This document shows, piece by piece, positions 20,403 to 36,444 of a stretch of DNA of 43,090 nt. A program made the translations under genes and the position numbers. The DNA is taken from the NCBI GenBank assembly GCA_020345765.1, contig CP070770.1, forward strand, positions 2,757,665 to 2,800,754. Direction: 5' to 3'. The stretch is from Deltaproteobacteria bacterium. Lineage in GTDB: Bacteria > Desulfobacterota > G020345765. Within the stretch, counting starts at the first letter, position 1, and every line of letters begins with the position of its first letter. The notes under the pieces were generated by a model. The model did no database searches and was not told the DNA's origin. It saw only the letters and a program-made list of their open reading frames with translations.

Positions 20403-21371
20403 ATGAATTTAAGACTCATTAAACCTTTAGAATTCTCAAAAAAGAAATCCTCTCCTAAGAAGGGTTTGAAGAAGAAACCCTCTATCTTGATTATCGAAGA
20501 TTCTCCGGCAGCCCGGCAAAAAATTAAAGGGATAATCAATAAATTTTCGCTCTTTGACAATATATACGAGGCGGGTAATGGAATCGAAGGATTTAAGGTG
20601 TTGCTTAATGAAAGGAATATTGATCTTATACTCTGCGATGTGGTAATGCCCGAGATTGACGGATTCAAGTTTCTTTCGATGAAAAAGGCTAAACCGGAAT
20701 TTAATGAGATCCCCGTTATTATGCTGACCGGTAAAGAGGAGGTAAAAGACAGAATTAAGGGCTTAGAGGGGGGGGCAAGTGACTATGTAATCAAACCATT
20801 TGATCCGGGAGAGCTTGTTGCCCGGATCAAGGTGCATTTAAAGATCAAAAACTTGGAGGACGAGCTTAAGCGGCTGGCCATTACTGATGATCTTACCAAG
20901 ATCTACAACCGACGCTATTTTTTCGAGGTCTTGGAGAAGGAGTTTGATCGGGCAAGAAGATATAATGCTACCCTTTCCTACCTGATGATTGATATTGATC
21001 GCTTCAAGAGATTCAATGACACCTATGGCCATCTGGCAGGTGATAAGCTCCTGGCCAAATTATCCTTACTATTCAAGAAAGGGCTGAGGAAACACGACAT
21101 TGTGGCCCGCTATGGGGGAGAGGAGTTTGCCCTGCTACTTCCGGAGACTAACCTGAATGGGGCGGCAATCGTTGCGCAAAGGTACCGAAGGCAGGTGGAG
21201 AGGAAAAACTTTGGTACTTCCCGGAAGCCATTAAAAACTACTATCAGCATTGGGGTTTCCTGCTATCCGGAGGCGGTGATGGAGAATGCTGAGGATCTTG
21301 TCCGGCAGGCGGATGAGGCTCTTTATCGGGCCAAACAGGGTGGGAGAAACCGGGTGGAGCTGGCGAGGTGA
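20403..21371 (+). CDS. Response-regulator diguanylate cyclase (REC-GGDEF)
   Basis: 322 residues, soluble. A basic 25-residue start, then a receiver domain (about 27-145) with the acidic pair E32/D33, phosphoacceptor D79, T109 and K131, then a GGDEF domain (about 158-320). The active site reads GGEEF (238-242), the form used by working cyclases, and an RxxD inhibitory site (R229, D232) lies five residues before it, so it should make c-di-GMP and be inhibited by its product. PleD-like in layout but with one receiver. The ATG has no Shine-Dalgarno sequence. Its kinase is not adjacent; the two histidine kinases 8-11 kb downstream are possible partners. It ends tail-to-tail with rarA, ten bases apart. 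Confidence 0.93.
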   Translation: MNLRLIKPLEFSKKKSSPKKGLKKKPSILIIEDSPAARQKIKGIINKFSLFDNIYEAGNGIEGFKVLLNERNIDLILCDVVMPEIDGFKFLSMKKAKPEFNEIPVIMLTGKEEVKDRIKGLEGGASDYVIKPFDPGELVARIKVHLKIKNLEDELKRLAITDDLTKIYNRRYFFEVLEKEFDRARRYNATLSYLMIDIDRFKRFNDTYGHLAGDKLLAKLSLLFKKGLRKHDIVARYGGEEFALLLPETNLNGAAIVAQRYRRQVERKNFGTSRKPLKTTISIGVSCYPEAVMENAEDLVRQADEALYRAKQGGRNRVELAR

Positions 21372-25570: not shown

Positions 25571-26068
25571 ATGGCGGGGAAGAACATGAAGATACTGATA
25601 ATAGATGATGAAGAGGTAGTTCTTGAATTCTTTCAGGAACTGTTAGCGGAAGACGATTATTCGGTGAGCGTAGCCAAAAACGGCGAGGAAGGCTTGGAGG
25701 TCATGGGAAGGGAGTTTTTTAATTTACTTATCGTAGATAAAAACCTTCCGGGAATAAACGGACTGGAGGTGATCAGAAAGGCCAAAAAACTGAGTCCGGA
25801 TACCGAGGCAATCATGGTTACCGGATATGCCTCATTTGAGTCCGTTACGGAAGCCTTGGAATTAGGGGTGATTAGCTACATAACCAAACCCTTTGAGGAC
25901 ATAACAAAGGTTAAAGAGAATATTAAGAGGGCCCTGGAGAAGCAGGATAATAAATTTAAATTCAGGAAGAAGATGGAAGAGATGACGGAAACTAATAAGC
26001 GGTTAACGGAGTTTAATCAACAGATGCAAGCTGAGTTAGAGAGACTGAAGAAGCTGAGGGAAGAATGA
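25571..26068 (+). CDS. Stand-alone receiver domain protein with coiled-coil tail
   Basis: 165 residues. Receiver domain (about 7-125) with the acidic pair in ILIIDDEE, phosphoacceptor Asp in LLIVDKNLPGI, Thr in MVTGYAS and Lys in YITKPFED: all phosphorylation residues present. The last 40 residues are a charged helix (KMEEMTETNKRLTEFNQQMQ), probably a coiled coil. There is no DNA-binding or enzymatic output. Closely similar to receivers 1 and 3 of the three-receiver protein 6 kb downstream (shared DKNLPGI and GYAS blocks), so they likely arose by local duplication. First gene of the signalling/surface locus. Probably relays phosphate or binds a partner through its helix. Confidence 0.9.
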   Translation: MAGKNMKILIIDDEEVVLEFFQELLAEDDYSVSVAKNGEEGLEVMGREFFNLLIVDKNLPGINGLEVIRKAKKLSPDTEAIMVTGYASFESVTEALELGVISYITKPFEDITKVKENIKRALEKQDNKFKFRKKMEEMTETNKRLTEFNQQMQAELERLKKLREE

Positions 26069-26094
26069 TAGATATCAGAGGAGTGGGGGAATTT

Positions 26095-26130
26095 AGTGCA
26101 CAGTTCAGAGTGCACTTTAAACTGTGCACT
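26095..26130. repeat. Inverted repeat with three GTGCAC cores
   Basis: AGTGCACAGTT (26095-26105) and AACTGTGCACT (26120-26130) are perfect inverted arms; the 14-base loop holds a third copy of the palindrome AGTGCACT (26109-26116). It lies in the 116-base gap before the first Ig/barrel gene. It may be an operator, or an intergenic repeat. Confidence 0.6.
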
Positions 26131-26184
26131 ATGAACTATTTTAACATTTAGAACTAATCTCGCGGACAAGCAGGAGAATTCATT

Positions 26185-28524
26185 GTGAGCAGGTTTTTCA
26201 AAGGGGTTATTCAGGAGGGTGTTATTGCTATCGCATTTCTACTTGTTAGTCCCCTGATTATCTTCGCCCAACAGGATAATTTCCGGATAGAGCTTCTCCC
26301 ACTTACCCAGAAGATCATCGCTGATGGTAGTTCCCGATATCGGTTTACGTTCCTTGTCCTTGATACAGAATATCGATTGATTCAGAATCAAAACATTGAG
26401 GTTAAAGCCGAGGTCGGGACAGTTACCTCTTCGGAGGAGTTAGTCCCGGGGTTTTATCAGACTTTTTTCACTCCTCCGGAACTCGCAGAGATAAAACCAG
26501 TCATGATCACCACCCAAACCCAAATTCAGGGAGCGGTGGTCTCCAAAGCCTTCAGGATAAAAGCCTATCCCGATCAGGCTCTATCCATTTCAGCCTCCTT
26601 CAGTCCCGATGTGGTGATTGCCGGGAAGATGGGGAAGTTAGGGTTGAATATTACCGTGAAGGATAAGGCAGGTAAGGCGGTTGAGGATGCGAAGTTGACC
26701 ATAGAGAGCACGGTAGGCAAGGTCACCGGGATCAAGAATATCGGGAGAGGAAAGTACCAGGCGACCTATACTCTTCCTCCGGAAAAGTATCCCCAGGTAA
26801 CAGTTGTTACGATTGAGGCCGAATCCCGGGGGCTGACAGGGCGAGAAATGCTTCCAATACCATTCATCGGGCAAACCCGATTGGAGGGGCGGACCAAGAC
26901 TAATTCTAAGGTGGTTATCAGGGTTGGCAAGAAGGAGTTGGGGACGGTAGATTCTGGCCAATTTGGGGAGTTTGAGCTTCCCCTGACGGTACCTCCGGGA
27001 TATAATTATGCCACCCTTACCGTAACCGATGATGTCGGAAATGTAAGCAAGGAGACCGTGGATCTTAAGGTGTCCAAGTACAAGTTAATGAGAATGTATA
27101 TTAATACCCGGAAGCTGGTGGCGGATGGTAACTCCCGGGCAAGGGTCAGGGTATTTGTAATCGATCGGTTCGGTAAGCCCATGAGGAAAGGAAAGATAGT
27201 AATTAATGCGAGTCCCGGTGAGGTTTCTCCGGTAAGAGAGGAGAAACCCGGGGTATACGTGACCGACTATTTCACCCCGACAGGATTGCCCGGAGCCGAA
27301 AGGCAGAAAACGGTAAGTATAAAGGTCTATGTCCCCGGAGGAGGGAAGGAACTGACGGATTCCGGGACGGTTGAATTATGGGCCGGGTTTCTACCAGCCA
27401 AAATGAGCTTACAGATAACACCAAGGTCTTTAATAGCTGATGGCCGTTCCCGGGCGGCGGTTAGGGTGGAGCTAAAAGACCAAACGGGTAATCCTCTGCC
27501 GGGGGAGCCACTGAGGATAGCCGCCGACTCGGGGGATATAAGCAGGGTAAATGACCTGAAAAACGGGGTATATACGGCCTGGTTAACGAGCCCGAAAAAG
27601 AGGAGGGAGGAAGGTATAAAGATCAAGGCATCGCTCAAGATGCGGACAGGGAGAGCCCCGGACGATTATTTTATTTTAGAAAAACAAGAACGGATATACC
27701 TTGTGACCGGTAAGCCGGCCCTGGTTGCGATCGAGGCCACTTCGCTTACCCTCCAGGCTGACGGGGCTTCCTCTTCCCGGATCACAACTAAGATTACCGA
27801 TGCCACCGGTAACCCAATAGTTGGTGAATCACTGGTGATTACCGCTTCTCGAGGTAAAGTAGGGGAGGTCATGGATCATGAAGACGGAAGATATTCCTTC
27901 GACTACTTTGCTCCCAAGGAAAAGCGTGAGCAAACTGCCCAAATCACAATCACTAATCCCTCAGGGGACTTTACCGAGATAACCAAGATTTTATTAACGC
28001 CCAGGCCAAGAAATTTTGGGATCGGGCCAAAAATTGGGTATATTACAAACTTCGGAAAGGTCTCGGGCTTTTATCCGGGGTTAGATGGTAGCTTTATACT
28101 TCCCTGGTTCAAGCGAGTTACTGCCATCTCCCTTGAAGCAGGTTATTATTATTCTTCTCACGAAGAATCCGTTCAGGATCAGGGCAAGCTCGTTACTGAT
28201 CTGAAGATTATTCCTATCTTCATTAATGGAATGTACCGGATTCCTGCTGGCAGGCTCAAACCATATATCGGGGTGGGGTTAGGGGTACTGATAACTAATT
28301 ACAAACTTTCTTATTCTCTTCAGCCCAGCCTTACCTCAACTTCCTGGGTATTCGGATTTCACGGGGTGGGGGGGGTGGAGATGAAGCTCGGTCCGGGTAA
28401 TGCTTTGGTGGAGCTTAAATATAATTACTCCCGATTGGATTCAGATCTCAAGACTTCAAGCTCGACTATAGAGGGTAATGTCGGCGGACTGTTCGCCGGC
28501 ATAGGATATAGATTTATGTTTTAG
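26185..28524 (+). CDS. Secreted Ig-array (invasin-like) protein with C-terminal outer-membrane barrel, paralogue 1
   Basis: 779 residues, GTG start with AGGAG eight bases upstream. Signal peptide (about 1-28, ending LIIFAQQ). Then at least five beta-sandwich repeats of the bacterial Ig-like/invasin (Big_1) kind; the tell-tale ADG-S-R opening is at residues 44, 313, 418 and 525, each followed by a V-x-D-x-x-G-x-P strand and a G-x-Y-x-x-x-x-T-P close. Two further sandwiches lie at about 130-300. From about 611 the sequence changes to alternating aromatic/glycine strands (PKIGYITNFG, SLEAGYYY, LKPYIGVGLGVLI, LVELKYNYS) ending YRFMF, the outer-membrane barrel signature. Unlike invasin, the barrel is at the C-terminus, so the Ig rod probably lies in the periplasm or is exposed through another route. 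A paralogue is encoded at 34102. Confidence 0.85.
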   Translation: MSRFFKGVIQEGVIAIAFLLVSPLIIFAQQDNFRIELLPLTQKIIADGSSRYRFTFLVLDTEYRLIQNQNIEVKAEVGTVTSSEELVPGFYQTFFTPPELAEIKPVMITTQTQIQGAVVSKAFRIKAYPDQALSISASFSPDVVIAGKMGKLGLNITVKDKAGKAVEDAKLTIESTVGKVTGIKNIGRGKYQATYTLPPEKYPQVTVVTIEAESRGLTGREMLPIPFIGQTRLEGRTKTNSKVVIRVGKKELGTVDSGQFGEFELPLTVPPGYNYATLTVTDDVGNVSKETVDLKVSKYKLMRMYINTRKLVADGNSRARVRVFVIDRFGKPMRKGKIVINASPGEVSPVREEKPGVYVTDYFTPTGLPGAERQKTVSIKVYVPGGGKELTDSGTVELWAGFLPAKMSLQITPRSLIADGRSRAAVRVELKDQTGNPLPGEPLRIAADSGDISRVNDLKNGVYTAWLTSPKKRREEGIKIKASLKMRTGRAPDDYFILEKQERIYLVTGKPALVAIEATSLTLQADGASSSRITTKITDATGNPIVGESLVITASRGKVGEVMDHEDGRYSFDYFAPKEKREQTAQITITNPSGDFTEITKILLTPRPRNFGIGPKIGYITNFGKVSGFYPGLDGSFILPWFKRVTAISLEAGYYYSSHEESVQDQGKLVTDLKIIPIFINGMYRIPAGRLKPYIGVGLGVLITNYKLSYSLQPSLTSTSWVFGFHGVGGVEMKLGPGNALVELKYNYSRLDSDLKTSSSTIEGNVGGLFAGIGYRFMF

Positions 28525-28590
28525 GGGGTCAGGCTAGAGACGGGAACGATTCTGAGCATTGATCAAGATGATAAAGTTTGGGGGTAAAAA

Positions 28591-30537
28591 ATGAAACTAC
28601 TTTATAAGCTAATACTCATTATGTTCTTTATCTCCACGGTACCTCTTGCTATCTCCAGTTATTCGTCCATTAATATCAGCCAGGAAGAGGTGATTGGGAA
28701 GATTCAACAACTCCAGCTAAAGAGCGCTGCTAATATCAACAGCCAGATAAACAAGTACCTGAACGATATAATTACCAACCTGAGATTCGGGGTCGGATAC
28801 CTGAAGCTGGAAACCCTCTCCGACAGTGCCAAGAGGGGAAGCCTGAAGATTCTTTACCGCCAGTTCGATCAAATAAGTATTATTTCTCTCCTGAATAGCT
28901 CCGGAAAGGAGATTGTTAACAGCGTTTATACCCCAAGGAGAAAGGGTTCCCCGAATACTCCGGGAGATCGATCCGTATCTTCGGAAGAGCTTGAGGAATT
29001 TCGCCGACATATCCCTTACCAGGTAGCTCCCAGCCAGGGGGTAGCGGTGGGACCGGTTTATACCTCCCCGCAGAGGGAAGTTTCTCTAATGCCTCTGGCA
29101 ATCGCTTTTGATATTCACGGGGGTAAATCGAAATGGATCCTCTGTGTGGAGCTTTCTCTGGCCAAGATCCAGGAGATGATTGCAGGTTTCTCCCTCGGTA
29201 AAAAGGGCATTGCCTATATATTGGATGGCGAAGGGAAGTTGATATTCCATCCTTCCCGGGAAAGGGCCCTGAGCCGGGAGAATTTGAAGGGATTGAGCAT
29301 TGTTAGGCGGTTACTGCAACAAAGAAAATATGGGGTGATGGATTTTGAGGATAAGGACGGGACATTGAGTGTTGGCGCTTATGGCCCGGTAGGCTTCCAG
29401 GATTGGATCGTGGTAGTTCAGCAGCCCAGGGAAGAAGCCCTGGCAGGTATCTGGAAGATGATTAAGCAGATACTCTTCTGGATCGGTGTTAGTCTGGTGG
29501 TAGCGATTACTATCGGGATAGTATTTGCCCGGGGGGTGAGTGAGCCGGTTAAAAAGTGTGCCCAGGGGGCCCTGGAGATTGCCAAGGGTAAGTTCGACCA
29601 GAAGATAGAGGTAGAGAGCAAGGATGAGATCGGGCAACTGGCCAAAACCTTTAACTATATGAGCGGAGAACTAAAGAATTCCCGGAGAAAGATCGAGAAG
29701 CAAAATGAGGAGATCCGGAGGTGGAACCTGGAGCTTCAAGATAGGGTGGAAGAGAGAACCCGGGACTTAAAAGAGGCGCATGAGCACCTACTGCGGTCCC
29801 AAAAGATGGCTGCGGTAGGATCCTTGGGAGCAGGTGCCGCCCACGAATTGAATAATCCTATGGTAGGTATCCTGGGGTTCGTCCAATTGCTGTTGATGAA
29901 GAAGAAGGAGGGGGACCCGGATTACCGGGCGTTGAAATCCATCGAAGAACAATCGAAGAGGTGTAAGGAGATAATCCATGGACTTCTGGCGTTCTCCCAG
30001 TCGCAGCAGGAAGAGAGGAACTATGTCTCAGTTAACCTGAATAACGTTATAAACAGTGCCCTGTCCCAGGTGGAAAAAGAGATCATTTCACAGAAGATCT
30101 CCGTCAACAAGCAGCTCGATCCCCATTTGCCTGAGATATATGGGGATTTCAATCAACTAAAGCAGGCACTTCTCCATATAATCTCCAATGCCCGAAATGC
30201 GATGCCGGCGGGAGGAGAACTTTCCATTATTACGGAGAATAGTGATCGTAAAGTGGTCCGGGCGAAGATCCGGGATACAGGTAGAGGTATTTCCCGGGAG
30301 ATTATCGAGCGTATCTTTGATCCGTTTTTTACTACCAAGGAGAACTGGCAGGGGACCGGAATGGGCCTGGCAGTTACTAACCGTATTATCGATGAACATA
30401 GAGGAACAATTGATGTCGAAAGTGAGCTTGGGAAAGGGGCAACCTTTGTCCTGAGCTTTTCTTTGGAGGACAACAAGAAGCTTGCCGGTGAGCACTTCAA
30501 GGTTGAGCAAAAAGAGGTGAGAGCCCATTTGATTTAA
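28591..30537 (+). CDS. Membrane sensor histidine kinase with extracytoplasmic Cache-like domain
   Basis: 648 residues. First membrane helix about 5-25, large external sensor (about 30-285) with the look of a double Cache domain (IISLLNSSGKEIVNSVY and IAYILDGEGKLIFHPS are paired PAS-like strands), second helix about 291-314, HAMP (about 312-365), coiled coil, then HisKA with phospho-His H418 (GAGAAHELNNPM) and an HATPase domain with N533, the G1 box DTGRGIS (562-568), the F box RIFDPFFTTK and the G2 box GTGMGL (588-593). All catalytic elements are intact. The ligand is unknown; Cache domains bind small molecules. Likely targets are the nearby receivers. It starts 66 bases after the Ig/barrel gene. 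Confidence 0.92.
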   Translation: MKLLYKLILIMFFISTVPLAISSYSSINISQEEVIGKIQQLQLKSAANINSQINKYLNDIITNLRFGVGYLKLETLSDSAKRGSLKILYRQFDQISIISLLNSSGKEIVNSVYTPRRKGSPNTPGDRSVSSEELEEFRRHIPYQVAPSQGVAVGPVYTSPQREVSLMPLAIAFDIHGGKSKWILCVELSLAKIQEMIAGFSLGKKGIAYILDGEGKLIFHPSRERALSRENLKGLSIVRRLLQQRKYGVMDFEDKDGTLSVGAYGPVGFQDWIVVVQQPREEALAGIWKMIKQILFWIGVSLVVAITIGIVFARGVSEPVKKCAQGALEIAKGKFDQKIEVESKDEIGQLAKTFNYMSGELKNSRRKIEKQNEEIRRWNLELQDRVEERTRDLKEAHEHLLRSQKMAAVGSLGAGAAHELNNPMVGILGFVQLLLMKKKEGDPDYRALKSIEEQSKRCKEIIHGLLAFSQSQQEERNYVSVNLNNVINSALSQVEKEIISQKISVNKQLDPHLPEIYGDFNQLKQALLHIISNARNAMPAGGELSIITENSDRKVVRAKIRDTGRGISREIIERIFDPFFTTKENWQGTGMGLAVTNRIIDEHRGTIDVESELGKGATFVLSFSLEDNKKLAGEHFKVEQKEVRAHLI

Positions 30538-30557
30538 TCCGAGTTTTATGATATAAT
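30529..30557 (+). promoter_or_regulatory. Possible promoter of the FecR-like gene
   Basis: TTGATT (30529-30534) at the end of the kinase gene, 17-base spacer, perfect TATAAT (30552-30557); start point near 30564, about 23 bases before the ATG. It would let the second half of the locus be expressed separately. Confidence 0.45.
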
Positions 30558-30586
30558 TTTTACCATTTTTTCGAGTTCAGACAGGT

Positions 30587-31453
30587 ATGCTGAAAAGAGC
30601 GATTATAATAACCCTGGCCGTCCTGGCCTTCGTGGCCATAAGCTTTTTTGTCTACCGGCTTATTTTCCCGGAAAAAGCCCTGGTGCTGGCATCTTTGGAA
30701 GGGGTCGTGGAGATCGAAAGCGGTGGGGTATGGATTCCCCTTAAGCCCGGGGATAAGATATATGCGAATTCCCGGATAAGGAGCAAGGATAATTCAGTAG
30801 CCATGATACAGATGGGGGAAGACTCCTTCATTAAGGTTGAGTCCGGATCGGAGCTTCTTCTGCAAGAGGTGAGTGGAGATAGGATTAGGGCTAAGCTCGA
30901 GGAAGGGAAGCTGTCTGCTGCCTTGAAGGAAGGCGTCGTACCGTCGGTTCAGGTAGAGGCGGGGGGGAGTGAGACGATAATAGAGAGTAAGGGAGGGGAG
31001 TTTGCTGTAGCCGCCGATCCGAAGGGCTCCCTTACGGTAGCGGCAACAAGAGGAGAGCTCTCACTGGCTGGCCAGAAGGGGGTGACCCAGATGACTCCCG
31101 GGGAAGTGGCAATGGCAGCGCCTGATAAGCAGATGGTAAAGAGTGAGGTTTCCCGGAATGTCTTTCTGGAGGTTAATTGGCCCTGGCCTTCTGCCGTGCG
31201 GACTAACAAGAGGGAGGTTCTGGTAACCGGGTCAACCGCGGTGGGGGCACAGGTAACCATTAATGGGGTAAAGACGAGCACGGATTTTAATGGAAATTTT
31301 GTGAGCCTGGTGCCCTTGCAGGAAGGAAGAAACGTCATAATAGTTACCTCGGTGGGCATCCTGGGAGACCGGAAAGAGGCGATCTCTCCGGAGATAATGG
31401 TTGATACTACTCTGCCGGAGATTGAGATTAAAACCAGGGATCTCTGGGAATAG
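30587..31453 (+). CDS. FecR-like membrane protein with C-terminal Ig-like domain
   Basis: 288 residues. Short basic start, one membrane helix (about 4-26), then a FecR domain (about 33-180: VLASLEGVVEIESGGVW, LKPGDKIYANSRIRSKDNSVAMIQMG, ETIIESKGGEFAVA), then a small Ig-like sandwich (about 205-285: VLVTGSTAVGAQVTINGVKT, DFNGNFVSLVPLQEGRN). Classic FecR passes an outer-membrane TonB-receptor signal to an ECF sigma factor; here there is no sigma factor, no TonB receptor and no cytoplasmic anti-sigma part. The FecR domain faces the periplasm. In this locus it could contact the barrel/Ig proteins or the kinase sensor (inference). Confidence 0.8.
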   Translation: MLKRAIIITLAVLAFVAISFFVYRLIFPEKALVLASLEGVVEIESGGVWIPLKPGDKIYANSRIRSKDNSVAMIQMGEDSFIKVESGSELLLQEVSGDRIRAKLEEGKLSAALKEGVVPSVQVEAGGSETIIESKGGEFAVAADPKGSLTVAATRGELSLAGQKGVTQMTPGEVAMAAPDKQMVKSEVSRNVFLEVNWPWPSAVRTNKREVLVTGSTAVGAQVTINGVKTSTDFNGNFVSLVPLQEGRNVIIVTSVGILGDRKEAISPEIMVDTTLPEIEIKTRDLWE

Positions 31454-31484
31454 TTTGAATAGGGAAAATTATTAAAGGTAAGAA

Positions 31485-32282
31485 ATGGAAGGGCTTACTG
31501 GGGAATTAAGGAATGCCGAAGAAGAACTGCGGACTCTTCGGAGAGAACTGATCCAGGCCTCGAAGATGGCGGAACTGGGTACCATCGCGGCCACCATGGT
31601 CCACGAGCTCAAGCAACCTCTCTTTGGAATAAAGTCTTTTGCCCAGATGATGCTGGAAAAGCTACCCGAGGACAGTCCGTTCAAAAAGAAGGTAGCTCAG
31701 ATTATTGAGCAGTCGGTCAGGATGGAGGAGATCATCCGCCGGATCCGGGAGTTTTCCCGAAAATCCGGTGAGGCCACTTTTTTTGATATTAATGAACCAA
31801 TAGGAGCGGCTCTGGAGCTACTGGCTCATGGACTGCGAAAGTCGAATATTAGGGTTTTACGGGGGCTTTCCCCAGAGCTGCCGAAGATAAAAGGTGATTT
31901 CAACCAGATTGAGCAGGTATTTATCAATCTGATTGACAACGCCCGGGATGCTATTGAGGGGATAAATGGAGGCATGATCGGGGTAGAGACCCGGCAGGGA
32001 ACTGAAAATCAGGGGGTAGAGGCAGTAGTATACGATAACGGATACGGAATCCCGGAAGAGTTCAGGAACAATGTATTCAAGTCGTTTTTTACCACCAAGG
32101 AAAAAGAGAAGGGTACCGGTCTGGGGCTCTTTATCTGCCAGGAGATCATCAGGGATCACGGGGGGGAGATTAGGCTTTTAGGTTCCGAGGAAATAACCCG
32201 AGAAATTAATGAAGGGGCGGTGACCGCATTTAAGATAAAACTCCCGAAAGCTGATTTACAAGGAGATGGTAATGGAAGGTGA
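31485..32282 (+). CDS. Soluble histidine kinase without sensor domain
   Basis: 265 residues. Starts with a short coiled coil (about 5-28), then HisKA with H40 (TMVHELKQPLFGIKSF), then HATPase with N152 (INLIDNARDAI), G1 box DNGYGIP (184-190), F box and G2 box GTGLGL (210-215). It has no membrane helix and no PAS, GAF or Cache domain, so it must receive its signal through the N-terminal coiled coil or a partner. The kinase core resembles the membrane kinase two genes upstream. Its 3' end overlaps the three-receiver gene by 11 bases (from the preferred start), so the two are coupled and are probably a cognate pair. Confidence 0.92.
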   Translation: MEGLTGELRNAEEELRTLRRELIQASKMAELGTIAATMVHELKQPLFGIKSFAQMMLEKLPEDSPFKKKVAQIIEQSVRMEEIIRRIREFSRKSGEATFFDINEPIGAALELLAHGLRKSNIRVLRGLSPELPKIKGDFNQIEQVFINLIDNARDAIEGINGGMIGVETRQGTENQGVEAVVYDNGYGIPEEFRNNVFKSFFTTKEKEKGTGLGLFICQEIIRDHGGEIRLLGSEEITREINEGAVTAFKIKLPKADLQGDGNGR

Positions 32283-34035
32283 GAAAATAATTTCCCAACT
32301 TAATGAGGATATGCGAAATTTTAAGTCCGCATTAGAGAGGGAAAATCGGATTCTGGTGGTTGATGATGAGGATGTCGTCCTGATGGTATTAGAGGAGCTT
32401 CTCACCGGTGAGGGGTATAAGACATCACTTGCCAAAAGTGGAGAAGAAGGCATTAAACAACTCCAAAAATCCCCTTTTAATTTGGTAGTAACCGATAAGA
32501 ACCTCCCGGGGATATCCGGTCTGGATGTTATCCGACATTGCAAGGAGTTGAATCCTTTGATCGAGATCCTGATGATAACCGGGTATGCCTCTCTGGAATC
32601 GGCCCTCGAGGCGATTGGCCGGGGAGCCTATGACTACCTTACCAAGCCCTTTGAGAACCTGGATGTCCTGCGGATCAAGATAAAGAAAGCCGTGGGTAAA
32701 CAGAACCGCACCCTTATCAACCGAAAAATCGTAAGTGAGCTGAAAAAGCTCACCGATGAGTTTATGAAGAGAGATGGGGTCAAAGAAAAGCAGCGCCATA
32801 TTGTTGGCAGGTTCGCGGCGGAGCTTGAAAGATTTAAGCGGGAATTAGGGAAGCGAAACCGGATTTTGGTGATCGATGAGGATGAGCAGGTAGGAGGCGT
32901 TACTACCCGATTTCTTCAGGAGCAGGGATACGATGTGACCTTCAAGGCATCCGGGGAAGAAGGGATTGATTTCCTGAAGGAGCACGGGGCGAACTTGATT
33001 ATTACTGATAAGGATCTGCCCGGGATGGATGGATTTGCCCTGATTGAAAAGGCAAAGGAGATTGACCCTGATATAGGAGTAATGATGATTGCCTCCGGGT
33101 CTTCCCTCGATACCGTGCTAAAGGCAGTAGATAAGGGGGCCTGCGATTACCTCCTGAAGCCCCTGGAGGGGCTTAATGTCCTGCTGACCAAGGTTAAAAA
33201 GACGCTCAAGGAACAGAATGACAACCTCCAGTATAAAAAGCTGATTCAGGAGCTAAGGACCCTGAGCAAGGAGGCCCTGCACTTTGCCCAAGAGGCCGAA
33301 AGACAAAAGAGCTTCTTCGAAGAGCTTACCGAGGAGGAAGAGGAACTACTGGAAGGATTGGGAGCCGGTCCCCCACGCTCCCCGGAGGAGATTGAAGCCG
33401 ATAAACCTATAGTTATCAAGGTAGCGCCGAAAGGATCCCAGGAAAAGTTCGAGCAATTTATGGAAGAGGTTAAGCCGGAAACGACGCCAGAGGAAAAGAC
33501 AGTAGAGCTAAAGCCTGAGCCGGTGGATTTAAAGCTAAAGAAAGTAGAGGAGGAAGCGCCAACGAGAATAAGGGTTCTGATCGTTGATGATGAAGATGTG
33601 GTCCTTAAGGTGATGAAGGAGCTTCTCGCCGGGGAGGGATACGAGGTGGAGCTCAGCCTCTCGGGGGAAGAAGGGCTGGACCTTTTAAAAAATAGATCTT
33701 TCGATCTTATGCTGATTGATAAGAATCTACCCGGGATCTCCGGGCTGGATCTGATCGGCTCAGCAAAGAAGGTAGACCCGGAGATGGAGTTTATTATGAT
33801 GACCGCCTACGGATCCCTGCAATCAGCCATGATGGCAATGGAGCTGGGGGTGTGTAGTTATATCCTGAAGCCTCTTGATGATGTGAAAAATATCTCGCAG
33901 GTAGTCGGCTGGGCAGCACATAAGCGGCGGGAAAAGATCAAGCTCAAGAAGAAAGTCGAGCAACTTATGAAGGAGAACCAGCTCCTGAAGCAGGAACTCA
34001 TCGGACTGAAGAAGAGAATCAAACTGGATGCCTGA
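32272..34035 (+). CDS. Three-receiver response regulator without output domain
   Basis: 587 residues from ATG 32272, chosen because AAGGAG (32260-32265) lies six bases before it; the ATG at 32266 abuts that motif. Receiver 1 (about 25-145): D31/D32, D75, T103, K125. Receiver 2 (about 196-315): D202, D246 and K296, but the switch Thr is replaced by A274 (MMIASGSS). Receiver 3 (about 434-555): D439/D440, D483, T511, K533. Linkers are helical; that between receivers 2 and 3 (about 318-432) is long, acidic and Glu/Pro/Lys-rich. The C-terminal 35 residues form a charged coiled coil. No HTH, GGDEF or other output. It looks like a phosphate hub or scaffold for the two kinases. Confidence 0.92.
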   Translation: MEGEKIISQLNEDMRNFKSALERENRILVVDDEDVVLMVLEELLTGEGYKTSLAKSGEEGIKQLQKSPFNLVVTDKNLPGISGLDVIRHCKELNPLIEILMITGYASLESALEAIGRGAYDYLTKPFENLDVLRIKIKKAVGKQNRTLINRKIVSELKKLTDEFMKRDGVKEKQRHIVGRFAAELERFKRELGKRNRILVIDEDEQVGGVTTRFLQEQGYDVTFKASGEEGIDFLKEHGANLIITDKDLPGMDGFALIEKAKEIDPDIGVMMIASGSSLDTVLKAVDKGACDYLLKPLEGLNVLLTKVKKTLKEQNDNLQYKKLIQELRTLSKEALHFAQEAERQKSFFEELTEEEEELLEGLGAGPPRSPEEIEADKPIVIKVAPKGSQEKFEQFMEEVKPETTPEEKTVELKPEPVDLKLKKVEEEAPTRIRVLIVDDEDVVLKVMKELLAGEGYEVELSLSGEEGLDLLKNRSFDLMLIDKNLPGISGLDLIGSAKKVDPEMEFIMMTAYGSLQSAMMAMELGVCSYILKPLDDVKNISQVVGWAAHKRREKIKLKKKVEQLMKENQLLKQELIGLKKRIKLDA

Positions 34036-34101
34036 TTTTCAAGATTACGGGTAACCTGTCCTGAGTTCTACTTTAGCAGGTTTGAAGTAAATGAAGACGT
34101 T

Positions 34102-36444
34102 ATGAACCTCGGGCTGTCCACAAAATTAATCTTAATTTTATTTTTTATCTTCCTCCTTCCCTCACAGCTCTCGGCGGCATCTAAAAAAGGCTTTGACATC
34201 GATGTCCTTCCCCTCCGTCAGAAGATCATTGCTGACGGCCGGAAAGTATACCCCCTTACCTTTGTGATCATTGACCGATATAGAAGGTTGCTGGATAACC
34301 AAGAGCTCCAACTAATCACCGATACGGGTAAGTTGTCCCCGGTAATAGAAGACCCGCCCGGATTCTATGCTACTTTTTTCACTCCTCCGGAGATTCTGGA
34401 GACGAAACTCATAACAATTGCTGCCCAGGCCCGGGTCAAGGGAATAATAGTTTCCAAGACCTTCAAGATGAGGATCTATCCCTATCAGGGCTTGGCCACC
34501 CCAGTCATTTCCAACCCCGATGAGGTGGTTACCGGAAAGGTAAGGAAGGTAAATTTAAACGTTACGGTGCAGGACAAGATTGGCAAACTGGTTGAGGATG
34601 CAAGATTAACCGTAGAGAGCACATTGGGTGAGATCGCCGAGATCAGGAACCTCGGCGGGGGAAAGTACCGGACTACCTATGTCCTCCCACCGGGAAGATA
34701 CCCCCGGACAGCGATTATAACCATAAAGGCGGAGTCCCGGGGGATGGCGACGATTGATATGTTTTTAATCCCACTGGTTGCCAAGGCCCGGATTGAAGGA
34801 AGGACCAAACCCCGCTCGCGGGTGACCATGAAGTCCGGCAAAAAGGAGTTGGGGATAGCGGAATCCGGGGAAACCGGTGAGTTTGAGCTGCCCCTGACGA
34901 TACCTCCGGGATATAATTATGCTACTCTTTCCGTGACCGATGCCTACGGCAACGTAAGCAGAAAGTCGATGGATTTTAAGATACCCAAATTCAAGTTGAT
35001 GAGGATGTATATTACTCCCGAGAGACTCCTGGCCGACGGCAACTCCCGGGCGGAGATCAGGATATTTTTGATCGACCGGTACGGTATGCCCCAGAGTAAG
35101 GCAAGGATAGTAGTTGTTGCGAGCATTGGTGAGGTCTCTCCGGTCAGGGAGGAGGAACCCGGGATTTATGTGGCTGATTATATTACCCCGGCGGGATTGC
35201 CCGGGGACGAAAGCCAGAGGACGGTTAAAGTAAGGGCCTACATTCCCGGAGGGGGAAAGGAATTGGTAGAATCGGGGGAGATTAAATTATGGGCCGGGTT
35301 TATTCCTATCGTGATGAATTTACAGGTTCAGCCCAAGATTTTAATATCCGATGGCCGTTCCCTGGCAAACGTCCGGGTGGAATTGAAAGACCAGGCAGGG
35401 AATCTCCTTTCCGGAAGGCCGGTGAGGATAGTTACCGACCTGGGAGAGTTAAGCAATATGGAAGACCTGGGAGGTGGGGTATATACGGCCATTTTAACGA
35501 GTCCGAAGAAGAGGAAAAAAGAGAGTATAACGGTTAAGGCCCTGCTGAAAATTAAGGTGGGGAGGGGTTCGAAAGACTATTTCTTTCTGGAGGAGTCAGA
35601 GCGGATAAGCCTTCTGACCGGCAGGCCGGCCCTGATTGCAGTCGAAGCTACCTCACCCTTTCTCCAGGCCGATGGGATCTCCTCATCCAAGATCGTTACC
35701 AAGATTGCTGATGCCAACGAGAATCCCATCGCCGGGGAATCACTGTTGGTCAATGCCTCCCGGGGCATGGTGAAGGAATTGAAGGATCATGGGGATGGAA
35801 GCTATTCGTTTGATTATGTCTCCTCCAAGGAGAGATATGAAAAGATTGCCCGGATCTCCGTTACTAATAAACGCAAGGAATTCAGCAAGGGGCTTTCAAT
35901 AACCTTGATGCCTAAGCCGACGAACTATAGTGTCGGACTTAAGACAGGCTATATCAATAACTTTGGCAGGATATCCACGGTATATCCCGGGATCGAGATG
36001 ACCTACCGGATACCGGTGTTTAACCGGATGTTTTTCTCGTCCCTTGAATCGGGCTGGTATTATAATTCAAATAGATATAAAGATCAAAATAATGACATAG
36101 AGGTGCTAATTGACTGCGAGATTCAGGTTATCCCGATTTCTTTAAACGTCTTCTACAAAGTAATTACCGCTAATCCTCATATCACCCCTTACTTCGGGGG
36201 AGGGCTGGGGGCAAATATTACTAATTCTAAGATCTCTGCGGCTTACCCCCAGCCGACTTTTATTCAGAAAAAAACCCTTTTCGGCATTCATGGCTTTGCG
36301 GGGATTGAGTCTAAGCTGGGCTGGGGAAGTATGTTGCTTGAGGTTAAGTACAGTTACGCAAAGCTCGAGCCGGAAAAGGAGTTTGGGATAAAAGGTAATG
36401 TAGGCGGGCTGGTAGCGTTTCTGGGCTACCGTCTGGGATTTTAA
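34102..36444 (+). CDS. Secreted Ig-array (invasin-like) protein with C-terminal outer-membrane barrel, paralogue 2
   Basis: 780 residues, almost exactly the length of the protein at 26185 and alignable end to end by eye: both have QKIIADG near residue 45, GYNYATL-VTD blocks, a PGGGKEL block, LQADG-SSS near 525, and a C-terminal barrel ending in an aromatic residue (here YRLGF). Signal peptide about 1-25 (LPSQLSAAS). The Ig region is much better conserved than the barrel, where strands and loops differ. No good ribosome binding site: a four-codon frame MKTL starts at 34091 and its TGA overlaps this gene's ATG, so translation may be coupled to that leader. Last gene of the signalling/surface locus; likely partner or alternative form of paralogue 1. 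Confidence 0.85.
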   Translation: MNLGLSTKLILILFFIFLLPSQLSAASKKGFDIDVLPLRQKIIADGRKVYPLTFVIIDRYRRLLDNQELQLITDTGKLSPVIEDPPGFYATFFTPPEILETKLITIAAQARVKGIIVSKTFKMRIYPYQGLATPVISNPDEVVTGKVRKVNLNVTVQDKIGKLVEDARLTVESTLGEIAEIRNLGGGKYRTTYVLPPGRYPRTAIITIKAESRGMATIDMFLIPLVAKARIEGRTKPRSRVTMKSGKKELGIAESGETGEFELPLTIPPGYNYATLSVTDAYGNVSRKSMDFKIPKFKLMRMYITPERLLADGNSRAEIRIFLIDRYGMPQSKARIVVVASIGEVSPVREEEPGIYVADYITPAGLPGDESQRTVKVRAYIPGGGKELVESGEIKLWAGFIPIVMNLQVQPKILISDGRSLANVRVELKDQAGNLLSGRPVRIVTDLGELSNMEDLGGGVYTAILTSPKKRKKESITVKALLKIKVGRGSKDYFFLEESERISLLTGRPALIAVEATSPFLQADGISSSKIVTKIADANENPIAGESLLVNASRGMVKELKDHGDGSYSFDYVSSKERYEKIARISVTNKRKEFSKGLSITLMPKPTNYSVGLKTGYINNFGRISTVYPGIEMTYRIPVFNRMFFSSLESGWYYNSNRYKDQNNDIEVLIDCEIQVIPISLNVFYKVITANPHITPYFGGGLGANITNSKISAAYPQPTFIQKKTLFGIHGFAGIESKLGWGSMLLEVKYSYAKLEPEKEFGIKGNVGGLVAFLGYRLGF

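Follow-up and report, generated by a model that had tools for sequence, protein, structure and literature searches.

A candidate envelope-sensing two-component cassette with FecR-Ig and Ig-barrel proteins in a genus of Desulfobacterota

We analysed a stretch of 43,090 nucleotides (the window; C1:2757665-2800754) of the 3.42-Mb single-contig genome of a Deltaproteobacteria bacterium (GCA_020345765.1, contig CP070770.1; here G000). Seven consecutive genes at 25571-36444 of the window encode a solo receiver, a barrel protein with an array of immunoglobulin-like (Ig) domains, a membrane histidine kinase, a FecR-Ig protein, a soluble histidine kinase, a triple receiver protein and a second Ig-barrel protein. 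We give about an even chance to the reading that these genes hold a genus-level envelope-sensing two-component cassette, consisting of a five-gene core and shared receivers, whose output is cyclic di-GMP (c-di-GMP) in the copy that bears an HD-GYP protein. The core is under purifying selection in comparison with a second genome of the genus, and the cassette receivers are paralogous to each other and to the receiver of an HD-GYP phosphodiesterase encoded inside one copy. A first-pass annotation, made from the sequence alone, had described the locus as an envelope-signalling gene set with two kinases and four receivers, and this description stands, with both kinases intact. The open reading frame coordinates confirmed its seven genes, their order and their rightward strand, and its domain architecture was upheld by Pfam for all seven, helped for FecR by a homologue and a fold match and for the second barrel by alignment.

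Conservation of the five-gene core

The sole other genome of the genus that we compared was G001, a metagenome-assembled genome (MAG) named "Deltaproteobacteria", one contig of which is identical to JAUWWP010000040.1 (Deltaproteobacteria bacterium CSMAG_2661); the remaining relatives are kin at phylum level. The results showed that the dCache kinase, FecR-Ig, soluble kinase, triple receiver and Ig-barrel genes kept their relative order in three copies from the two genomes. Copy A of G001 (C461, L052) carries kinase, FecR, soluble kinase, triple receiver, barrel and TIG lipoprotein genes in window order, and its four non-barrel genes are 77-83% identical to those of the window. Cassette B (C179, L053) carries kinase, FecR, soluble kinase, REC-HD-GYP, solo receiver and triple receiver genes and the start of a barrel gene, which is truncated by the end of the contig. 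It is the five-gene core in order with two extra genes, those of the REC-HD-GYP protein and the solo receiver, inside, and its four common non-barrel genes are 33-53% identical to those of the window. Since the order of the core recurs twice in G001, the association is more than a chance one.

The first-pass annotation had treated all seven genes as one unit, which G001 does not support: within the limits set by the contig ends, the solo receiver and barrel 1 lie there on another contig (C293), followed by the start of a TIG lipoprotein gene where the window has the kinase. The receiver and barrel 1 pair is thus a second module. As to whether the genes stay together or are mostly found apart, the core was together in all three readable instances (window, L052 and L053), so its homologues are not mostly apart, whereas receiver and barrel 1 were on the other contig. 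The solo receiver gene of the window starts 49 nt after a RecN-like gene; in G001, the contig of the RecN-like gene stops 365 nt beyond that gene, in DNA that is non-coding and repeat-like in look (L227:5191-5556). By reading of the sequence, dinB-, lexA- and dUTPase-like genes precede cassette B (L053:4188-12512), and the dUTPase gene of the window genome (L228:5409-10644) is followed instead by genes like those of an Mla-type ABC transporter.

We then compared eight cassette or neighbour genes with G001. The ratio of nonsynonymous to synonymous substitution rates (dN/dS) was 0.12-0.19 for the two kinases, FecR and the triple receiver and 0.20-0.30 for the faster-evolving barrel genes, with 0.11 for the RecN-like reference. 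The five-gene core is therefore under purifying selection, and decay of the cassette was rejected on the overall range of 0.12-0.30.

To describe the distribution beyond the genus, we searched 395 genomes of the phylum, including G000 and G001, with profiles, scoring at most six FecR-Ig, three triple-receiver (threshold 1e-30) and two Ig-barrel candidates per genome. Among the matches listed, none of the 393 other genomes held a full-length FecR-Ig, triple receiver or Ig-barrel protein. The FecR-Ig model matched in 133 of the 395 genomes at E 0.001, and among the matches listed those outside G000 and G001 were partial. The best triple-receiver outsider among the matches listed was a 694-aa frame of G025 with two stops, covering model positions 28-396 only. 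In the genome contig collection, one of 80 loci, the best 80 of at least 367 relatives, had a triple receiver (the G001 record), and four of the 80 had two receivers. The cassette looks like a genus-level invention. We found no account of this gene set in the literature, as searched by titles and abstract openings with few subscription journals covered.

The neighbourhoods of other FecR genes were also inspected. Twenty stretches (211 kb in total, five shorter than 9 kb) were hand-picked from the better FecR matches, in frames of 245-394 aa, together with 19 hand-picked control stretches (237 kb), 12 of them from genomes that supplied no FecR locus and one itself with a FecR gene. A kinase or receiver stood near the FecR gene at 0 of 20 loci, versus 5 of 19 controls, and the pairing of FecR with a kinase is not a general theme of the phylum. 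This count, like the separate contig of receiver and barrel 1 in G001, would agree with a chance adjacency of envelope genes and two-component genes. We nevertheless regard such chance as very unlikely, given that the five genes keep their relative order in three copies, one of them only 33-53% identical outside the barrel, and that the soluble kinase and triple receiver genes overlap by 17 nt.

Receivers and c-di-GMP output

The part of a receiver that kinases read is the sequence after the acidic pair. This sequence is common to the solo receiver and to the first and third domains of the triple receiver (REC1 and REC3), and differs in the second (REC2). Inspected by eye, the solo receiver, REC1 and REC3 have the acidic pair, the phospho-Asp, the Thr/Ser and the Lys all present. 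REC2 of the window keeps the Asp and the Lys, with the conserved Thr changed to Ala, and REC2 of cassette B has lost the Asp and the Lys too. Judged by these residues, REC2 is degenerating towards a pseudo-receiver; domains of that class are the subject of a review (PMC12632262). The role that the first-pass annotation gave the triple receiver, as integrator of both kinases, is hypothetical, and the lost Thr lies in the middle one of its three domains.

To place the receivers, we built a tree of 45 sequences, left from 88 matches after removal of duplicates and pieces shorter than 85 aa, at loci picked up through their similarity to the triple receiver and the HD-GYP protein. Three triple-receiver proteins contributed nine cassette receivers, and three more were solo; these 12 formed one clade with the HD-GYP receiver (support 0.986), and they are paralogous to each other and to this receiver. 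The best NCBIfam model for the solo receiver was the NosR-family c-di-GMP phosphodiesterase regulator (NF053512; positions 1-150 of 422, 108.6 bits, far under the cut-off of 400), and the triple receiver likewise scored best against it. Elsewhere in the window genome, six receiver-domain frames of 257-482 aa lie inside about 10 kb (L056, G000:C1:88000-104000); those included in the tree fell outside the cassette clade.

The output of the cassette was then considered. The first-pass annotation had reported no output domain, which applies to the window copy and copy A, both without an effector domain (Pfam calls no receiver-fused HD-GYP in the window copy), but not to cassette B. There the REC-HD-GYP protein is intact (HD_5 135.5 bits in Pfam), and its translation shows both the HD and the GYP motif. 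On another G001 contig, C538, a barrel gene continues and is followed by a gene for a 1182-aa lipoprotein and, 80 nt further in the same direction, a PilZ gene (57.6 bits). The end of C538 overlaps the end of the cassette B contig with 293 of 308 positions matching, and the PilZ gene is probably downstream of cassette B; C538 and the cassette B contig may represent a single locus in two strains, or else close paralogues. The window genome had no orthologue-grade match to the HD-GYP protein of cassette B (best 43%) or to the PilZ protein of C538 (best 40%, PilZ domain only). The cognate output was probably c-di-GMP turnover, which is absent from the window copy. In the simplest reading, an HD-GYP regulator was the output with which the receiver family expanded, and copy A functions without this regulator.

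Two other targets were weighed. The first-pass annotation had suggested that signalling might reach the REC-GGDEF diguanylate cyclase at 20403, and we set this link aside as highly improbable. The gene has the same orientation as the cassette and stops 4.2 kb upstream of it, and a c-di-GMP output would agree with the HD-GYP protein of cassette B. Its receiver, however, was placed far from the cassette clade and is 31% identical to the triple receiver in a partial match only, and three genes intervene, for an MgsA-type ATPase, an NAD kinase and a RecN-like protein (RecN by reading). Less remote, though still unlikely, is that the main target of the kinases is an NtrC-type DNA-binding regulator encoded elsewhere, with the cassette receivers serving as phosphate sinks or buffers that shape this signal. 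The AtoS model was best for both kinases, and ZraS took second place for one kinase and third place for its partner; AtoS and ZraS are both partners of NtrC-type regulators; more than 12 receiver matches across the genome also lie in frames of 450-491 aa, a length typical of such regulators. However, the kinase scores are far under the cut-offs of the AtoS and ZraS models, the sampled long-frame receivers fall outside the cassette clade, and the locus has no NtrC-type gene.

Kinases, envelope proteins and locus layout

Each kinase has a HisKA and a HATPase domain, in which the His, N and G boxes are conserved (Pfam; motifs by eye in alignments). The membrane kinase is 83% and 53% identical to its two G001 homologues, and the soluble kinase 80% and 49%. 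The FecR match of the window protein is weak, at 16.1 bits against a Pfam cut-off of 24 bits. We made the FecR call because the G001 homologue clears the cut-off at 35.3 bits and because the fold agrees: the AlphaFold model (mean predicted local distance difference test score, pLDDT, 80.5) has a helix at residues 2-26 and then an all-beta body, and its best solved match is the putative anti-sigma factor 4m0n (E 3.8e-5, TM-score 0.35/0.46, 128 columns), which we take to be of FecR type. From the N-terminal helix we infer that the FecR fold sits in the periplasm. As the helix begins at residue 2, the protein has a one-helix anchor and no cytoplasmic domain, so any signal that it might read must go via the Cache kinase or stop in the periplasm. 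The PF04773 profile gave no match at E 0.001 in the window genome, with the window FecR only at E 0.015. In Pfam, neither the seven genes nor the one that follows them gave a sigma domain, nothing in the locus matched a TonB receptor, and the seven genes gave no HPt match at E 0.1 (HPt was not sought elsewhere in the genome).

To assess the topology of the Ig-barrel proteins, we read their sequences against the Pfam results. Barrel protein 1 has a signal peptide, about six Ig-like domains over 600 residues (counted by reading) and a C-terminal barrel of about 172 aa ending in YRFMF; it also matches Big_6 (Pfam). In both proteins the last 172 or so residues read as eight strands with an aromatic end residue. 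Barrel protein 2 is 51% identical to barrel protein 1, and its barrel, not called by Pfam (Surface_Ag_2 at E 0.003, under the cut-off), follows from this alignment. The AlphaFold model of barrel protein 1, from a three-row alignment, was unusable (mean pLDDT 48, about 25 in the barrel region). Eight-strand barrels have both termini on the periplasmic side, and with so small a C-terminal barrel the Ig array probably hangs in the periplasm. The Ig arm thus most likely points inward, and we estimate that six Ig domains would span about the width of the periplasm. Pfam found no inverse-autotransporter barrel domain in these proteins, in which the Ig domains come first and the barrel last, and no Autotransporter match at E 0.1, with OMP_b-brl instead. 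A search of the wider genome contig collection with barrel protein 1 gave 24 pattern matches and no relatives.

We also considered that the Ig-barrel proteins serve as adhesins, exported outward to the cell surface, with the kinases merely controlling their expression. The invasin-type Ig domains, the faster evolution of the barrels (dN/dS 0.20-0.30) and the surface lipoproteins nearby fit this explanation. It is doubtful all the same: the C-terminal barrel of about 172 aa is much shorter than a 12-strand autotransporter pore, which takes 250-300 aa, the intimin-type N-terminal barrel is absent, and the locus has no DNA-binding output.

Relatives of the barrel were seen at other loci. A barrel relative in G055 had no kinase alongside; about 4.4 kb separate it from a receiver gene on the opposite strand, with no evident linkage. 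In the window genome, L055:10672-13786 (G000:C1, about 698.7-701.8 kb) encodes a barrel relative without the Ig array. Genes for a solo receiver and a REC-GGDEF protein come next in the same direction, so that here too a c-di-GMP enzyme is encoded close to a barrel protein.

The features of the locus are listed in Table 1.

Table 1. Genes of the signalling locus and the following lipoprotein gene (positions in the window)
Feature	Position	Strand	Evidence
Solo receiver, REC with C-terminal coiled tail, without output domain	25571..26068	+	Response_reg 2.7e-25 (Pfam)
Barrel protein 1, Ig array with C-terminal outer-membrane barrel	26185..28524	+	Invasin_D3 7.2e-44, Big_1 3.5e-31, OMP_b-brl 9e-7
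Membrane histidine kinase, dCache_1, HAMP, HisKA and HATPase	28591..30537	+	Pfam
FecR-fold and Ig protein, membrane-anchored	30587..31453	+	Weak FecR and Glucodextran_B (Pfam), AlphaFold model
Soluble histidine kinase, HisKA-HATPase, no sensor domain called	31485..32282	+	Pfam
Triple receiver protein	32266..34035	+	Three Response_reg stretches (Pfam)
Barrel protein 2, architecture as barrel protein 1	34102..36444	+	Invasin_D3 1.6e-37, Big_1 (Pfam)
IPT/TIG and CHB_HEX_C repeat lipoprotein (lipobox by reading)	36700..38742	+	Pfam

The gaps between the seven genes are 116, 66, 49, 31, -17 and 66 nt, and the next gene follows after 255 nt. Scans of the locus gave 16 promoter-like sites, versus 13.4 (standard deviation 3.7) in shuffles, and 19 terminator-like sites, versus 13.9 (standard deviation 4.1). 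With promoter counts near those of shuffles and a good site (10 of 12 positions) at 30529, directly before the FecR gene, the scan does not support a single transcript. At gathering score, the only RNA families in the window were three tRNAs, none of them within the locus. The gap between the receiver and barrel 1 genes holds a 36-bp dyad with 11-bp perfect arms (26095..26130), which forms a strong predicted hairpin (fold z -3.49) and has a 14-mer core unique in the genome; it was not seen in the corresponding gap of G001. The IPT/TIG lipoprotein is a probable surface partner of the cassette, possibly on its own transcript given the 255-nt gap, and its G001 homologue, 69% identical, likewise follows the barrel gene on C461. 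This genome has a very large family of surface proteins with IPT/TIG and CHB_HEX_C repeats, with 83 matches to the protein of 36700-38742 in frames of up to 3798 aa.

Proposed mechanism and comparison with known systems

In the mechanism that we propose, the C-terminal barrel would hold the Ig arm in the periplasm, where the arm could reach two inner-membrane proteins, the Cache kinase and the single-pass FecR-Ig protein. A change in the outer membrane, or a ligand, would alter autophosphorylation of the Cache kinase and, through a putative contact, that of the soluble kinase. Both kinases would feed one pool of receivers, namely the solo receiver, REC1 and REC3, while REC2 presumably becomes a pseudo-receiver with a structural role. 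Where the copy includes HD-GYP, phosphate would reach the REC-HD-GYP protein, c-di-GMP would fall, and the PilZ protein would read this fall and tune surface proteins. In the window copy, the receivers may work through contact with other proteins, may serve as sinks for phosphate, or may have a target encoded at another locus. A bolder form of this proposal, which we advance tentatively and think improbable as it stands, is a new trans-envelope architecture in which a periplasm-spanning arm of about six Ig domains, carried by the outer-membrane barrel, docks on FecR-Ig at the inner membrane, and FecR-Ig drives the paired kinases into the paralogous receiver pool, with the triple receiver, one of its domains turning into a pseudo-receiver, as physical integrator; the original output would have been c-di-GMP hydrolysis, now replaced by protein contact.

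Several points weigh against the reading of a genus-level cassette with c-di-GMP output. The core occurs in two genomes only, one of which is a fragmented MAG (590 contigs, 6% contamination), and FecR genes elsewhere in the phylum had a kinase or receiver nearby less often than the controls had (0/20 versus 5/19). The C179/C538 overlap is inexact, which makes the PilZ adjacency uncertain, and the c-di-GMP step does not apply directly to the window copy, where HD-GYP is absent as in copy A. The strand count of the barrel and the periplasmic position of its arm come from reading the sequence, the AlphaFold model having failed (pLDDT 48). Finally, the receivers of the tree were collected with a profile of six cassette-type receivers; this bias favours similar receivers, yet it should not draw outsiders into the cassette clade.

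If the proposed reading is true, periplasmic receptors of the FecR type can work with histidine kinases and c-di-GMP instead of sigma factors, and a locus that seemed to lack an output has a concrete, testable one. Copies with and without HD-GYP would then offer a natural comparison of the gain or loss of a pathway output. The reach of these statements is that of a core known from two genomes of one genus.

Compared with known systems, the cassette shares parts with several. FecR-FecA-FecI is a cell-surface signalling system; as in it, a FecR-fold protein with an inner-membrane anchor and a periplasmic body adjoins an outer-membrane barrel protein. Unlike that system, the cassette has no sigma factor, no cytoplasmic anti-sigma part and no TonB-dependent receptor, and has histidine kinases and receivers. 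It resembles the two-component c-di-GMP phosphodiesterase regulators (NF053512, NosR family), which the solo and triple receivers match best, and cassette B has a REC-HD-GYP protein; it differs from them in that the window copy has receivers only, with a degenerating middle REC, and has FecR and Ig-barrel partners. Tandem invasin-type Ig domains with an outer-membrane barrel are shared with the inverse autotransporters (intimin/invasin). The barrel of the cassette, unlike that of these type Ve proteins, is small and C-terminal, after the Ig domains, and in contrast to a classical (type Va) autotransporter it gave no match to a C-terminal 12-strand translocator. FrzZ is a multi-receiver protein without an output domain. 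Like FrzZ, and like the pseudo-receivers described in PMC12632262, the cassette has receivers without an effector, one domain being short of a key residue; unlike FrzZ, it has three receivers per chain, encoded by a gene between those of a kinase and a barrel protein.

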